Assembly (NCBI GenBank): GCA_021802645.1
Contig: JAJZRO010000008.1
Coordinates: 30,557 to 94,556, forward strand
Length of the DNA: 64,000 nucleotides
Source: Deltaproteobacteria bacterium
GTDB lineage: Bacteria; Desulfobacterota; Desulfobulbia; Desulfobulbales; Desulfurivibrionaceae
Direction of reading: 5' to 3'
The notes under the pieces were generated by a model that saw only the letters and a program-made list of their open reading frames with translations, was not told where the DNA came from and ran no database searches. Below, piece after piece: positions 1-11,909 of the stretch. Each line of letters starts with the position of its first letter. Position 1 is the first letter of the stretch. The position numbers were made by a program, and so were the translations under genes.

Positions 1-313
1 ACGCGCTGGAGCCCAGCTTGTCGAGCTTGGCTTGTTGGTCCGGATCTCCGGGTTTGCCGAGGATCGCGTCCCACAGCACAGCGGTGTCGCGCCCGTGTTG
101 CTTGGCCACATCGAGGAACGAACCCACCTTATCCAGCGAATTCGCCCACGCGCTGGAGCCCAGCTTGTCGAGCTTGGCTTGTTGGTCCGGATCTCCGGGT
201 TTGCCGAGGATCGCGTCCCACAGCACAGCGGTGTCGCGCCCGTGTTGCTTGGCCACATCGAGGAACGAACCCACGGAATCCAGCGAATTCGCCCACGCGC
301 TGGAGCCCAGCTT
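1..313 (-). repeat. 147-bp in-frame tandem repeat (49 codons), two full copies plus the start of a third
   Basis: On the minus strand the unit begins at 313 with KLGSSAWANSLD and ends QQAKLD. Copy 1 spans 313-167, copy 2 spans 166-20, and copy 3 starts at 19 and runs off the window. The two full copies match at 144 of 147 bases; the three differences are adjacent and replace one whole codon (TCC Ser in copy 1, AAG Lys in copy 2). The unit has a helical, TPR-like look and forms the putative sensor region of the SIR2-STAND protein. The number of further copies is unknown. Confidence 0.95.
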
Positions 314-2473
314 GTGTGGTTCTGCTTCAATAGTTTTCCAAAATCGGATAGCTAGTTCTGGTTGGCCGCCGATTTTCGCCAACCGAACCAAATTGGGGAA
401 GTATGGCAGCGGCAAATCCCAAACTTGTTTAACAAGACCATCCGCCTTCGGAGTTATATATTCCCAAAGTCTTATCAATCGGACGGAGTTTCCGTCACGC
501 CGGAGGCGCGCGCTAAGAACGATTGCAGTCTGCAAGTGTCTTGAGGCGGCAGCGAACAGAATTTGTTCCTCATCAACGGACTGCGTCAGTGCCGCGAGAA
601 TCAGCCGCCCCCATCCTGGTTCGCGCAGTTCAAACTGACGATACTGCTTCAATTGTCCTCGCAGCGTTTGAGCGACGAGTCCGAGTTCGAACAGTTTCTT
701 AGTCTTGCCAGGATGTGGAAGCGCGTCGTTTTGGACGAGCATTTCGAGCTCTTGCGCCCCGAAAGCGGCCAAACAAACCGCGTTTTCAAGCTCTGGAGCA
801 TCAAGTCTGTCGAGCCAGTGTTTACGAACCCATGCGGAGGCTCTTGATGGAGGAAGCGGCCACCTGCCATTCTGAAAATCAGCGAGGCTGTCCAAGACTA
901 CGAAGGTGAACGCATTCAGCGCCGCGCGATAGACGGGATGCCATTCGGCGAGAGCTTCCGTCGGCGGTTCTGGCATGGGCGGACATTTTGCACCACCAAC
1001 CCGGTGATAGATATGCTTCGCCAAGCGGCCCAAGTCCTCTGGAGTGGGCTGAAGAAGGATGGCGGGGTTTGCCGGGTGCCTTTCAAAAAATGTCAAATCC
1101 TCCTCCGGAGTGACGACGACAGGCTGGTGAATCCGAGTTGCCACGAGCAGGAGGCGACCCCGGCTGTCGGAAGGCTTGGCAAGCCATTGCTGCCAGAGTT
1201 GGCGAGCGAGTTCCGGCTTGTAATGAACATTATCGAGAATCAGTAGCGTGCCAGGGCGCGCAAGGCGATTGACCGCCGCAACAGGGCTCGCCTCGACATC
1301 GTCTTCTATCTCTCGTTTGAGGTCGAGATAGAACGGGTGCAGTCGCTGCTCGCGAGAGGTTGCTACCCGGAGAGCGAGAGTGGTCTTCCCGACCGAGGCC
1401 ACATCTATGCAGCAAGCCCAACCATGCGCTTGCAGCCGCCTCAGCAGTTCAGCATCGGCAGCAAAGGCCGGCACGATTCCATCGACGTATTCCTGACGGG
1501 ACGGAAATGGGTCACTCGCCCCAGAAACATGGAAAAGCGGAAATTGGTCATCAACCTGAACGAACGGCCAACAGCGAGCCGCCGGAGTAACTGAGCGAAG
1601 CATGACCGGCAACTCGTCGTGCGACGGATAGCCAATGGACCGCAGGTTAGGCGGCTTGTTTGAACGAGCGGCGATTTCCTTAGCCTTGTCATCACGCGCC
1701 AGAAAGAAGTCTGGCAAACCACTTTCTCCCCATCCTTTGCTCCACTCAAGGAGGCGACCAAGATTTGGGTCATCTAACCCGTCACCACAGCCCACGTAAA
1801 TCCACGACCAGTTGAGCCAAAGTGTCCTGAAAAGTTGCTGTAGATCAACATCGGCAACCACGCGGTCGTAGGATGAGCGCCCCAGCACGATTGAGGACGG
1901 GCGCTGCCAGTGGCCGTGGATATGCAGAATGCCTGCCTTCTGCCGTGTCATGACGCGATGGAAATCCGCGTGTTCCTCCCAAGTCACGGGAGGCGCGCCC
2001 GTGATATCACTGAGAAGATTGTCGTAATTGGTCGTCAGCAGAAGCACCCCCGCTTCGTGGAGGTCGCGCAAGGCGTCTAGCGGGGCTTTGGCTTTCTCCT
2101 CATTCCGAGCCTTGAAACTGGCGAATGCGGTTTCGAGCCATTGGGCAAACACCTTTTCATCAGGCGTGTTGAGGACTTGCTCCACGGCTTCTGCGTGCTG
2201 AAGGGCTGTTTGAAGATTGAAGTGTGAAAACGCCGCGTTCAATGACGATTCAAGTCTATCGCCGTGGCTCTTCGTGAAGTAGTTGATAGCGACAAGATGC
2301 CGAATGCCATGCTTCAATAGACCAAGCCAAGAGGCATGAGATAGGCCCGTCGCGTTAATCGCCACTCCTGTGCCAACGACTACCACCACCTGTGGACGCG
2401 ACCTGTCGATCAGTTTGGCAATCTGATTCAGATCGGGCGAAAGGGACAGTGTAATTGTATTCGAGTTGACCAT
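1..2473 (-). CDS. SIR2-like domain / STAND NTPase / repeat protein, 3' end beyond the window
   Basis: The frame is open from ATG at 2473 to the window edge (824 codons visible), with an in-frame stop 9 codons upstream of the ATG and no clear Shine-Dalgarno. Residues 1-295 resemble a SIR2-like NAD-processing domain: VVVGTG at 31-36, TTNYD with N149, HGH with H186, and GCGDGLDDPN near 228-237. Residues 350-495 resemble an NB-ARC/STAND NTPase: Walker A-like DVASVGKTT (357-365), Walker B LLILDN (410-415), and LLLVATR (441-447) at the sensor position. From 721 there is a 49-residue tandem repeat. Known SIR2-STAND proteins (Avs5-like) degrade NAD when a phage protein binds the C-terminal sensor; that role here is inferred. 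Codons use more A/T than the neighbours, which suggests horizontal acquisition. The full length and any partner genes lie to the left. Confidence 0.85.
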   Translation of the reverse strand, partial: MVNSNTITLSLSPDLNQIAKLIDRSRPQVVVVVGTGVAINATGLSHASWLGLLKHGIRHLVAINYFTKSHGDRLESSLNAAFSHFNLQTALQHAEAVEQVLNTPDEKVFAQWLETAFASFKARNEEKAKAPLDALRDLHEAGVLLLTTNYDNLLSDITGAPPVTWEEHADFHRVMTRQKAGILHIHGHWQRPSSIVLGRSSYDRVVADVDLQQLFRTLWLNWSWIYVGCGDGLDDPNLGRLLEWSKGWGESGLPDFFLARDDKAKEIAARSNKPPNLRSIGYPSHDELPVMLRSVTPAARCWPFVQVDDQFPLFHVSGASDPFPSRQEYVDGIVPAFAADAELLRRLQAHGWACCIDVASVGKTTLALRVATSREQRLHPFYLDLKREIEDDVEASPVAAVNRLARPGTLLILDNVHYKPELARQLWQQWLAKPSDSRGRLLLVATRIHQPVVVTPEEDLTFFERHPANPAILLQPTPEDLGRLAKHIYHRVGGAKCPPMPEPPTEALAEWHPVYRAALNAFTFVVLDSLADFQNGRWPLPPSRASAWVRKHWLDRLDAPELENAVCLAAFGAQELEMLVQNDALPHPGKTKKLFELGLVAQTLRGQLKQYRQFELREPGWGRLILAALTQSVDEEQILFAAASRHLQTAIVLSARLRRDGNSVRLIRLWEYITPKADGLVKQVWDLPLPYFPNLVRLAKIGGQPELAIRFWKTIEAEPHKLGSSAWANSLDSVGSFLDVAKQHGRDTAVLWDAILGKPGDPDQQAKLDKLGSSAWANSLDKVGSFLDVAKQHGRDTAVLWDAILGKPGDPDQQAKLDKLGSSA

Positions 2474-8375: not shown

Positions 8376-11300
8376 TTAAAACGGTACCTTGAGCTTAAGA
8401 CTGACCACCTGATTCGTGTAATCCTGCCGGCCATCGACATCATAACGGGCCGCGATAGTGGTACCATTGGCGGCCAGCATTTCGAAACCAAGGCCGCCCT
8501 GCATGACGACGGTGGCCGGATCGAGCCCTTTGGTGATAAAGGCCGACCCGCCGCCCGCGAAGGTGGAGGTCACCGAGGACTGGCTGGCCAGGAAATCATA
8601 GCCGATCCCCACATGGCCGGTGAGCTTCGCCCGATCGGTGAGGGCATAGGCCGCCCGGCCGCCCGCGGAGACCACCAGGGAATCCTCGCTGTCGCTATCC
8701 ACATGCAGATTAGCAGCACCGGCGCCGGTTTCGGTATAGTCCTCGGCGTTCACATAGGTATATTGGGCGCGAAGATAGGGGGCGAGGGTAGTTTTCTCGT
8801 TCACCTTGTAACGGTGCTCCAATTCCGCATCGAGCAGGGTGTGCCAGCTCGTATAATCGGCACTGGCGATCCGGTTCAGACCGCCGAACTGGATATCCCG
8901 CGAGGAGTCGTTGTCGTTGAGGCCGAAGGCCGCCTGCAGGTTCAGGCTGGTCGCTTCGCTCAATTCGTCGGTGGCATAGAGACTCACCTGATAGGTGTTG
9001 ATGTCGAGATTCGCGCGGGTGATCGGCGAATCGCCGTCTACATCACCCTTGGCAAAGGAGAGCGCCGCACCGAGCCGCCAAGCCTCGCTCACCTTGCCAT
9101 CCGCGCCCATAGCCAACCCGTAGCTGTTGGCGCTGTAACCCGTCACCCCTTTCCTTTCGCTCTGGTCGGTCCAGGAATAGAAGGGCTGCACCCAAAAAGC
9201 ACGATCTTTGAACAACGGCTCGCCGGAAGAAAGGCCGTGCTCCCCGCTCATCCGTTCATGCACCACCTGCGAGCCGCTGCTGCCCGCAACGCCCATCGCG
9301 ATCTGTCCGCCGTTGCCGGCCAAAGCGGGCATGAGCTGCGAGACGGCCTGACCGACCTCGGTGGCCGTGCCAAGCGAGCCCAGGGCATTGAGCACGGTCT
9401 GCATGTCGCCGGTGGCGCCCGCAGTCTGGATCGCATCCAGGGCGCCGGCCACGCCGGCGGCGGCAGGAAAGGCGCCGCCCCCGCTCACCGCCTGAGTATA
9501 GTTCATTCCCTGTTCGGCGGTCAGATCGATGGCATTGCCGTTCACCGTTGCCGTAAAGTTCCACACGGCACTGTTGTCGGTGACGGTGAGGGCGCCGGCG
9601 TGAAGCGTCCCGGCAGAAAGCACATTGCGCAGCACGTTGCCGTTGGCCAGGGTATCGCCGGAGCTGACCTTGACGTCGATCTTGTTGCTGGCAGTCAGAT
9701 CGGCAGTGCCGGTCACCACCAGTTTGCCATAGTTGCTGGCGCTGGAGGCACCGGTCTGGAAGATGCCGCTCGCGTTCTGGGTATAGTCGCCGGTAATGGT
9801 CACCAGATTTCCGGCCGCCACCGAGAGAGTGCCGCTGTTGTGAACACCGTTCGCAACGGTCACGTCGTGGCCCATGTTGAAGAGACCACCGTTGGCGATG
9901 TTGAACGTCCCCACGTCGAAAGTGCTTTCCGAGGCAAAGGTGCCGTTCACATTGACGGTGCCGGTGCCGGAGACCGCATCTGTGATCCTTGCGGCAGTGC
10001 CGTTGATGTTAAGTGTACCGTTGTCGGTTACGCCGCCGCTGGCAGTAAGGGTGTTCCCAAGATCGAGAGTCCCGCCATTGGCAATGGTGAAAGTGTCGAC
10101 GCTGAAGTTATTCTCTGTGGCGAAGGTGCCGTTCACATTCACCGTACCGGTGCCGGAGACCGCATCTGTGATCCTTGCGGCAGTGCCGTTGATGTTAAGT
10201 GTACCGTTGTCGGTTACGCCGCCGCTGGCAGTAAGGGTGTTCCCAAGATCGAGAGTCCCGCCATTGGCGATGGTGAAAGTGTCGACGCTGAAGTTATTCT
10301 CTGTGGCGAAGGTGCCGTTCACATTCACCGTAGAACCGGCCAGGCCGGTCACCGCACCGGTGACCCGGCCGCTGGCGCCATTGAGGTTCAGGGTGCCATC
10401 GGCCAGCTCCACGGCGCCATCAAGAAGGCCGGTGTTGGTAATGACGACCGGACTGGTCGGATTGGTGATATAAATGGCGTAGTTGCCGCCCTGAATGGTG
10501 CCACTGTTGGTGATCCCGCCGTTTACAGCGCTGCTTTGGACACGAATGCCCGTCCCAGCCCCCTGAATGGTGCCGTTGTTCACGACGGCGCCGGTGATGG
10601 TGCTGTTGTTGACGTAGATGCCCACCGAAGTGGAACCCTTGATGGTGCCGGTATTGGTAATGTCTCCACCAATGGAGCTGTTATTCTGCACCATTATCCC
10701 GAACTGCCGCCCTGAGATGATGCCGGAATTGGTGATGTTGCCGGTAACGGTGCTGCTCGAAAGATAGATACCCGCCGAATTGGTGCCGGTGATGTGGGCG
10801 CCGACGTTGTTGACAATGCTGCCGATGTTGCTGTTGCTTACGGCGTAGATACCTGCCTGACCGGTAATGATACCGGAGTTGGTGATGCTGCCGGAGACGG
10901 TGCCGCCCGAAAGATAGATACCTGCCGTACCGGGGGGAGAACCCGCCTGGATGGTAGCGCCCGCATGGTTGGTGATGGAATCCACCGTGCTGCCGTTGCC
11001 GATATAGATGCCGTAAGAACCGCCAGAAATCGTACCGGAGTTGTCAATGCCCCCGGTGACGGTGCTATTGCTGTTGACGTAGATACCCGCCGAGTTGGTG
11101 CCGGTAATGTGGCCGCCCGTGTTGTTGACGATGCTGCCGTTGATGGTGCTGTTATTACTGATCGAGATGCCGTGCTGGTTGCCGGAAATAGTGCCGCTGT
11201 TCTCGATGGCACTGGCCACGTTGCCGGTGGCGCCGACCGTACTGCTGTTGTTGATGGAGATACCGTCCTGGCCGCCGGAAATGGTACCGGCATTGGTGAT

Positions 11301-11909
11301 CTTACCGGTGACGGTGCTGCTCGAAAGAGAGATGCCCGCCGAATTGGTGCCCTTAATAAGGCTGCTCGCCTGGTTGGTGATCCCTTCCACCGTGCTGTTG
11401 TTGATGATATTTATGCCATCATGTGCGCCCTGGATGGTGCCGCTGTTGGTGATGGTACCCACGGCACTTCCCCAATTGATTACGATACCGCCTGCTGTGG
11501 TGCCGGTGCCTGCACCGGAAATGGTGCCGCTGTTGGTGATATTGCCGGCGGTGGAACCGGAGGTAACATAGATCCCCGCGAAGTTACCGGAAATGGTGCC
11601 GTTGTTGGTGATCGTGCCCGCCGCTACAGGACCGGCGGGAATCAAAACAGCGGTGGCGGTACCAGTGCCGCCACCAACAACCCCGCCGTTTGCCGCAGTA
11701 TCCACAATCAGGCTGCCGCTGTTGCCGAGGATAACTTGGCCTGGATTCCCGCCGCTTGCGGTGTTTACAGTATAGGTAAGGAGGCCGCTTGTGGTTGGGA
11801 CAGTTACACCCCATGCCGGGGTGGCGGTGAGGGCCGGCAAGGCCGTGACCGCCAGGCAGGTGGCGGCGATGGCCTGATGCAGATGCTTGCGATGATATCG
11901 TTTGGCCAT
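8376..11909 (-). CDS. Autotransporter with long repetitive passenger (type Va secretion)
   Basis: 1177 residues. The N-terminus is a cleavable signal peptide (basic start, hydrophobic core, likely processing near TPAWG at 30-34). Residues about 40-540 consist of short glycine/asparagine-rich units such as ITNSGTISG, which predict a right-handed beta-helix; 540-770 hold longer repeats. The last roughly 260 residues look like an autotransporter beta-barrel, ending in an aromatic residue (KLKVPF) as outer-membrane barrels do. No protease or adhesin motif was seen, so the surface function is unknown. It is divergent from the sulfotransferase genes, with 202 bp between them. Confidence 0.9.
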   Translation of the reverse strand: MAKRYHRKHLHQAIAATCLAVTALPALTATPAWGVTVPTTSGLLTYTVNTASGGNPGQVILGNSGSLIVDTAANGGVVGGGTGTATAVLIPAGPVAAGTITNNGTISGNFAGIYVTSGSTAGNITNSGTISGAGTGTTAGGIVINWGSAVGTITNSGTIQGAHDGINIINNSTVEGITNQASSLIKGTNSAGISLSSSTVTGKITNAGTISGGQDGISINNSSTVGATGNVASAIENSGTISGNQHGISISNNSTINGSIVNNTGGHITGTNSAGIYVNSNSTVTGGIDNSGTISGGSYGIYIGNGSTVDSITNHAGATIQAGSPPGTAGIYLSGGTVSGSITNSGIITGQAGIYAVSNSNIGSIVNNVGAHITGTNSAGIYLSSSTVTGNITNSGIISGRQFGIMVQNNSSIGGDITNTGTIKGSTSVGIYVNNSTITGAVVNNGTIQGAGTGIRVQSSAVNGGITNSGTIQGGNYAIYITNPTSPVVITNTGLLDGAVELADGTLNLNGASGRVTGAVTGLAGSTVNVNGTFATENNFSVDTFTIANGGTLDLGNTLTASGGVTDNGTLNINGTAARITDAVSGTGTVNVNGTFATENNFSVDTFTIANGGTLDLGNTLTASGGVTDNGTLNINGTAARITDAVSGTGTVNVNGTFASESTFDVGTFNIANGGLFNMGHDVTVANGVHNSGTLSVAAGNLVTITGDYTQNASGIFQTGASSASNYGKLVVTGTADLTASNKIDVKVSSGDTLANGNVLRNVLSAGTLHAGALTVTDNSAVWNFTATVNGNAIDLTAEQGMNYTQAVSGGGAFPAAAGVAGALDAIQTAGATGDMQTVLNALGSLGTATEVGQAVSQLMPALAGNGGQIAMGVAGSSGSQVVHERMSGEHGLSSGEPLFKDRAFWVQPFYSWTDQSERKGVTGYSANSYGLAMGADGKVSEAWRLGAALSFAKGDVDGDSPITRANLDINTYQVSLYATDELSEATSLNLQAAFGLNDNDSSRDIQFGGLNRIASADYTSWHTLLDAELEHRYKVNEKTTLAPYLRAQYTYVNAEDYTETGAGAANLHVDSDSEDSLVVSAGGRAAYALTDRAKLTGHVGIGYDFLASQSSVTSTFAGGGSAFITKGLDPATVVMQGGLGFEMLAANGTTIAARYDVDGRQDYTNQVVSLKLKVPF
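9940..10311 (-). repeat. 186-bp tandem duplication inside the autotransporter gene
   Basis: Two almost identical units (9940-10125 and 10126-10311) encode the same 62-residue segment, beginning NVNGTFATENN and ending AVSGTGTV. The start of a third unit follows from 10312. A diverged version lies on the C-terminal side (NVNGTFASES). The DNA identity suggests recent duplication or active homogenisation. Confidence 0.9.

Follow-up and report, generated by a model that had tools for sequence, protein, structure and literature searches.

Near-identical 49-residue helical repeats within a SIR2-like, NLR-like protein of a Desulfobulbales bacterium

The window, a 64,000-nucleotide stretch of contig JAJZRO010000008.1 from a Deltaproteobacteria bacterium (Desulfobulbales, Desulfurivibrionaceae; assembly GCA_021802645.1), begins inside a leftwards-transcribed gene. 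A single 824-codon open frame starts at position 2473 on the minus strand and is cut at the window start by a 100-N assembly gap (G000:C19:30457-30556) lying directly before the window; across this gap, at G000:C19:29131-30456 (L004:4575-5900, minus strand), are the C-terminal 441 residues of the protein and its stop codon. The features of the gene within the window are collected in Table 1. The gene is 57% G+C and the window 63%, and this low G+C content, together with the absence of a close copy among the searched genomes of its own phylum, fits acquisition by lateral transfer. Pfam recognizes a MazE/PIN pair and an XdhC-family protein among the neighbors, and one 261-residue protein has no match; the remaining neighbors look like housekeeping genes, as judged from reading their translations. 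The MazE-like antitoxin and the PIN-domain toxin of this pair are encoded directly past the 3' end of the gene (L004:3707-4329), and apart from them no defense genes are seen beside the gene in this genome. We also note an unrelated autotransporter-like frame in the window (8376-11909, minus strand) with a 186-base repeat present in 2.2 copies that are 97% alike (9933-10332); this is a second recently amplified repeat in the window.

Table 1. Features of the gene at the start of the window, in window coordinates.
Feature	Position	Strand	Basis or remark
N-terminal 824 codons (SIR2-like, P-loop NTPase, helical region, repeats)	2..2473	-	open frame, translation
SIR2-like NADase domain, aa 26-268	1670..2398	-	Pfam SIR2_2, FAM118B match
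P-loop SVGKTT, aa 360-365	1379..1396	-	sequence; GKTT present
LLILDN, aa 410-415	1229..1246	-	sequence
Helical region aa 600-720, including a degenerate unit right before the array	314..676	-	AlphaFold2 model; alignment
Repeat R1	167..313	-	49 codons, first copy of the array
Codons 1-13 of R1, segment replaced between species	275..313	-	2/13 residues in common with the relative
Codon 13 of R1, TCC (Ser), replaced codon	275..277	-	
Repeat R2	20..166	-	49 codons, identical to interior copies beyond the gap
Codon 13 of R2, AAG (Lys)	128..130	-	
Part of repeat R3	1..19	-	truncated by the assembly gap

The N-terminal domain belongs to the Pfam family SIR2_2 (E 3e-14; 53.7 bits against a curated cut-off of 24.5) and matches human FAM118B (E 2e-16). 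Counted along that alignment, N149, H186 and D235 fall opposite FAM118B N163, H206 and D255, which are active-site or NAD-binding residues according to the available text of PMC12700824, and the Asn, His and Asp are thus all kept. The domain is also matched by the defense sirtuin models of PADLOC (LmuA, 4e-9; PDC-S25, 4e-7; Dsr1; ThsA). The P-loop that follows is degenerate, with an Asp replacing the first Gly of the Walker A pattern GxxxxGK[ST], and the LLILDN motif downstream is Walker-B-like. An AAA_14 match over residues 361-426 (E 0.0016) lies under Pfam's cut-off, and NACHT, NB-ARC and nSTAND models are all absent from the Pfam matches at E up to 1. The layout of effector, P-loop and C-terminal repeats that a STAND NTPase would have is seen, with Asp as the first Walker A residue, and the order along the gene of a SIR2 NADase-like part, a P-loop NTPase and a repeat alpha-solenoid is an NLR-like layout.

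The repeat array itself begins with R1 and R2, which match at 144 of 147 bases; as the sequence-only reading reported, all three differences fall in a single codon, which is codon 13 of the unit. The coordinates given there were correct but incomplete, in that the array extends past the window start and resumes across the gap (L004:5559-5900) with the copies Rx (36 codons), Ry (49 codons) and Rz, in which homology ends at codon 30. The 19 bases of R3, Rx and Ry show no differences from R2 at any readable base, and Rz has one non-synonymous change, from Gly to Asp at codon 3. Random synonymous changes in further copies, which the sequence-only reading had named as an outcome that would refute it, are not seen in the identical copies that can be read. 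Codon 13 is readable in R1, R2, Ry and Rz and encodes Lys in the latter three and Ser only in R1; the suggestion of a hypervariable codon within the array is not supported by this single codon of one edge copy. At the residue level R1 and R2 differ at one of 49 positions, and the far side has one difference over 114 residues (36 of Rx, 49 of Ry and 29 of Rz). The array thereby shows more than 85% repeat identity over at least 100 residues, which is the criterion used for fungal NLRs in the accessible part of PMC4986451.

Three random independent changes would share a single in-frame codon with a probability of 9.4e-5, and would fall in any adjacent triplet with a probability of 2.8e-4. The in-codon fit alone is modest evidence, since one event that changes several bases at once has roughly a one-in-three chance of falling in frame. 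We note that Ser13 of R1 and Asp3 of Rz are both in edge copies, where homogenization is expected to be weakest, and both within codons 1-13, a coincidence of two differences that may be due to chance.

Assemblies often use a run of 100 N as a stand-in, whatever the true length of the gap. Even if the two contig ends overlap, there must be a minimum of four copies because R3 has Gly and Rz has Asp at codon 3. It is very improbable that the array is an artefact in which the assembler collapsed or duplicated repeats. The gap does split the array, and the far contig breaks off in Rx immediately before codon 13, exactly as at a graph branch, but both edges of the array are anchored in unique in-frame sequence, the codon 3 difference itself demands the four or more copies, and the contig of the closest relative (see below) also ends inside its array, such that the difficulty looks like the effect of a real repeat.

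An AlphaFold2 model of residues 600-824 is an all-helical solenoid (mean pLDDT 79, mostly 79-89 at about residues 640-819 and mostly 79-88 in the array), in which each 49-residue unit forms three helices; WD40 has no Pfam match at E up to 1. Codons 1-13 span the second half of one modelled helix, a turn and the first residues of the next helix, with codon 13 near the start of the second of these. The model of the whole protein is poor (mean pLDDT 40) and was used solely to see the helices in the array. Foldseek gives no match to the array-region model with E up to 0.001, and the Z values of up to 7.9 with helical proteins are below 8, as is common for such helical models, so no family is assigned on fold. 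Neither the C-terminal half of the protein nor the repeat profile matches PDB sequences, and matches to PF07634 (RtxA) and TIGR02568 (LcrE) were discarded as below cut-off. Judged by its title, the TPR-like class with high internal sequence identity that Marold et al. 2015 reportedly described is similar in having helical repeats that are closely alike internally.

TALE and PUF proteins are repeat proteins in which each unit reads one element. A modular code of this kind, in which each unit would use codon 13 to recognize one element of a nucleic acid or a repetitive ligand, would suit the near-identical helical units and a difference restricted to a single codon, wholly replaced and close to a turn between helices. 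The array model also weakly resembles, among other folds, organellar-ribosome helical proteins (Z up to 7.6) and PUF proteins (Z about 5). We nevertheless consider it most unlikely, in that Z below 8 is common for such models, the interior copies seen are invariant, and the relative differs across codons 1-13 and not at one site.

The sole close relative that was found is in an uncultured Verrucomicrobiales genome (L011), with 79% residue identity over 534 aligned codons. Its contig breaks off in the array, having covered one full unit and part of a second, and the two copies are identical over all 65 comparable bases. The helical region of residues 600-720 is collinear with the relative's protein, and the gene is collinear without gaps on either side of codons 1-13, the segment in which the two proteins part. 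Here 11 of 13 residues differ between R1 and the relative, compared with 9 in the other 36 residues of the unit and 82 of 463 upstream; put as shared residues, these are 2/13 versus 27/36 for the rest of the unit (Fisher p 5e-4) and 381/463 upstream (Fisher p 5e-7). The segment was picked after viewing the data, and a circular permutation of the 13-codon choice, which allows for its position and not its length, gives p 0.008; no upstream 13-codon window has five or fewer matches (0/451). Codons changed at all three bases number 4/13 in the segment, 0/36 in the rest of R1 and 6/463 upstream. The Ser/Lys codon falls inside this replaced segment, whose variability is seen in one comparison, as only two genes carry the repeat. 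In codons 1-13 dN is 1.04 and dS 1.06, values that come from one gene pair and 13 codons at high dS; with dN/dS close to 1, they therefore reflect relaxed constraint or fast change and are not evidence of positive selection. About 97 residues are missing from the SIR2 part of the relative, among them the aligned His and Asp, and a short sequence is shared at the junction (L011:6450-6500), in keeping with either a real deletion or an assembly error.

Two other histories could give rise to near-identical copies. In the first, the array is simply a recent tandem amplification, by slippage or unequal crossing-over, within a helical scaffold; the copies are young, the Ser/Lys difference is one multi-base mutation in an edge copy, and there is no role in recognition. 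Only two coding differences are present among the copies before Rz loses homology, both in edge copies, and the 186-base repeat in the autotransporter-like frame indicates that amplification is not rare here. However, this leaves unexplained both the concentration of divergence in codons 1-13 and the identical copies with a different segment in the relative, and we regard it as unlikely. In the second, the two lineages amplified different founder units, or the segment was swapped in by conversion from elsewhere, and codons 1-13 differ by history and not through fast change at a binding surface. The segment does look block-replaced, probably including buried positions (A6/T and W7/R), with 44% base identity to the relative. 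Codons 14-49, in contrast, have diverged to about the same degree as the orthologous flanks (80% base identity; dS 0.53 versus 0.43-1.09), and the gene is gapless and collinear on both sides, which makes this history distinctly unlikely.

Further members were sought in several genome sets, whose draws overlapped and of which four are even samples of larger groups (395, 387, 387 and 390 genomes). Among relatives of the window's genome 3/97 genomes matched, these being the genome itself and G007 and G039, which match in the SIR2 part only. In the relative's order 8/320 genomes matched, with repeats in the relative alone, and a pattern search of genome contigs yielded 15 pattern stretches with one confirmed locus. 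The repeat profile matched 2/395 genomes in the window's phylum and 1/387 in the relative's phylum; the second match in the window's phylum (G441) is antisense to another long frame and contains a stop, and was taken as chance. The NTPase profile matched 1/387 genomes in the relative's phylum and 2/390 in the window's phylum, where the second match has E 4.9e-4 over 113 positions. Searches of phages and of viral contigs gave no match, and among plasmids four records weakly match the N-terminal 824 residues and none matches the repeat query.

Nine SIR2-bearing loci from the relative's order were checked for internal repeats; both rows of G097 were left aside, as were those of G182 and G205 with the NTPase only. 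The best has 66% residue identity at a period of 34 (L029), followed by 36% in L031 and at most 22% in the remaining seven; four of the nine loci end at a contig edge, and sensors may be missing from them. Near-identical repeats are thus not general among SIR2 sensors. The L029 protein (L029:443-4486) combines a SIR2 domain and a P-loop region in its center with a run of HEAT-like units of 34 residues, which reach 66% identity over 100 residues, and is a milder case of internal conservation. From reading the translations, the SIR2 proteins of L031, L032, L033 and L035 have C-terminal ends resembling formylglycine-generating-enzyme type domains, and appear to be another sensor type on a SIR2 effector.

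In the relative's genome another contig, L039, opens with a frame matching the protein's C-terminal end (48/64 residues). Its stop overlaps the start of a TIR-APAZ-like gene (PADLOC Aga_TIR, 3e-61; Pfam TIR_2, 1e-22), which is followed by a short pAgo (PADLOC, 7e-169), and this pair (L039:294-3129) looks like SPARTA; neither short pAgo nor TIR_2 was found in the window's genome (0/1 each). We infer that the relative's N-terminal piece and this C-terminal piece form one gene whose contigs (C181 and C577) are unjoined in the assembly, because each is the only such piece found in that genome.

We consider it probable that the array serves as the sensor solenoid in a bacterial defense protein with an NLR-like layout, because of the SIR2_2, PADLOC and FAM118B matches, the identical copies, the replaced segment, the TIR-APAZ and pAgo neighbors in the relative, and the G+C content. 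Counting against a defense sensor are the degenerate P-loop, the absence of a NACHT, NB-ARC or nSTAND model, a dN/dS of about 1, variability that is seen in one pair of genes, the unjoined contigs and the loss of the SIR2 His and Asp region in the relative, and, in the window's genome, a neighborhood with no defense gene other than the MazE/PIN pair. As a defense sensor, the solenoid would bind a protein of the invader that probably carries repeated sites, and binding would free the NTPase to oligomerize; the oligomer would then switch on NAD+ hydrolysis by the SIR2 domain and abort infection. Unequal crossing-over or gene conversion would keep the copies alike, and the same process would spread a changed recognition segment into all of them, with the Ser13 (first) and Asp3 (last) edge copies having perhaps missed the latest sweep or newly mutated. 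A more specific scenario, which we put forward tentatively and hold to be rather doubtful, is that specificity is changed wholesale: a new 13-codon segment arises in one unit and is swept through the copies by concerted evolution, giving each lineage a uniform and multivalent sensor with a reading face of its own. The edge copy with Ser for Lys could then be a snapshot of a sweep starting or ending. A diversity-generating retroelement was also considered, prompted by PMC10907252.

The sequence-only reading had likened the array to fungal NLRs, and the likeness is borne out in part, by the homogenized copies, the fast-changing segment and the NLR-like layout; a dN about equal to dS does not show positive selection on the variable codons. 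Fungal NLRs have near-identical sensor repeats with few variable sites, and in Podospora HET-D/HET-E and the HNWD family the repeats are hard to reconstruct without long reads (PMC12222747, PMC1805685, PMC4986451, as far as these are available). The present protein resembles HET-D/HET-E and HNWD in its repeats, near-identical within the gene and with few variable sites, in its layout and in the difficulty of assembling the array. It differs in that the fungal proteins carry WD40, ANK or TPR repeats behind NACHT or NB-ARC, whereas here an unnamed 49-residue alpha-solenoid unit is joined to a SIR2 effector in a bacterium, and in that four codons are under positive selection over 69 fungal repeats, whereas dN is close to dS in the single gene pair available here.

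Parallels are also known in prokaryotes. WRAP proteins have recently amplified near-identical repeats fused to a STAND ATPase, for which a part in innate immunity is proposed (PMC9218822), and the Highly-Repetitive WD40 proteins of bacteria have conserved units with diverse hotspot sites (PMC5587647); from the accessible portions of these reports, both are similar to the present array in having near-identical, recently amplified repeats, but are built from beta-propeller blades of about 40 residues with other effector domains, unlike the alpha-solenoid and SIR2 domain seen here. Avs5 (AVAST type 5) is a SIR2-STAND protein with helical repeats that acts against phages and hydrolyzes NAD+ on jumbo phage infection (PMC12931631, available in part, where near-identical repeats are not mentioned). 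It shares the SIR2 effector, central NTPase and C-terminal helical repeats with the present protein but has nSTAND3, and here neither the Pfam matches at E up to 1 include nSTAND3 (PF20720) nor the PADLOC matches an Avs5 model. A keyword search of the open-licence literature, with terms that did not name the unit itself, found no paper on the 49-residue unit, and the available parts of PMC7159879 and PMC12881547 hold nothing on a 49-residue repeat. As to the proposal that such an array would be notable in a prokaryotic immune sensor, bacterial STAND proteins whose sensor repeats are nearly identical have been described before, and what differs here is the repeat fold together with the SIR2 effector.

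If the array is indeed a defense sensor, then a bacterium would share the evolutionary device of fungal recognition genes while using another repeat fold and a NADase as effector, and the variable segment would mark the ligand-binding face. Contigs in both genomes end inside the array; assemblies would thus break such genes, and sensors of this kind may be under-counted.
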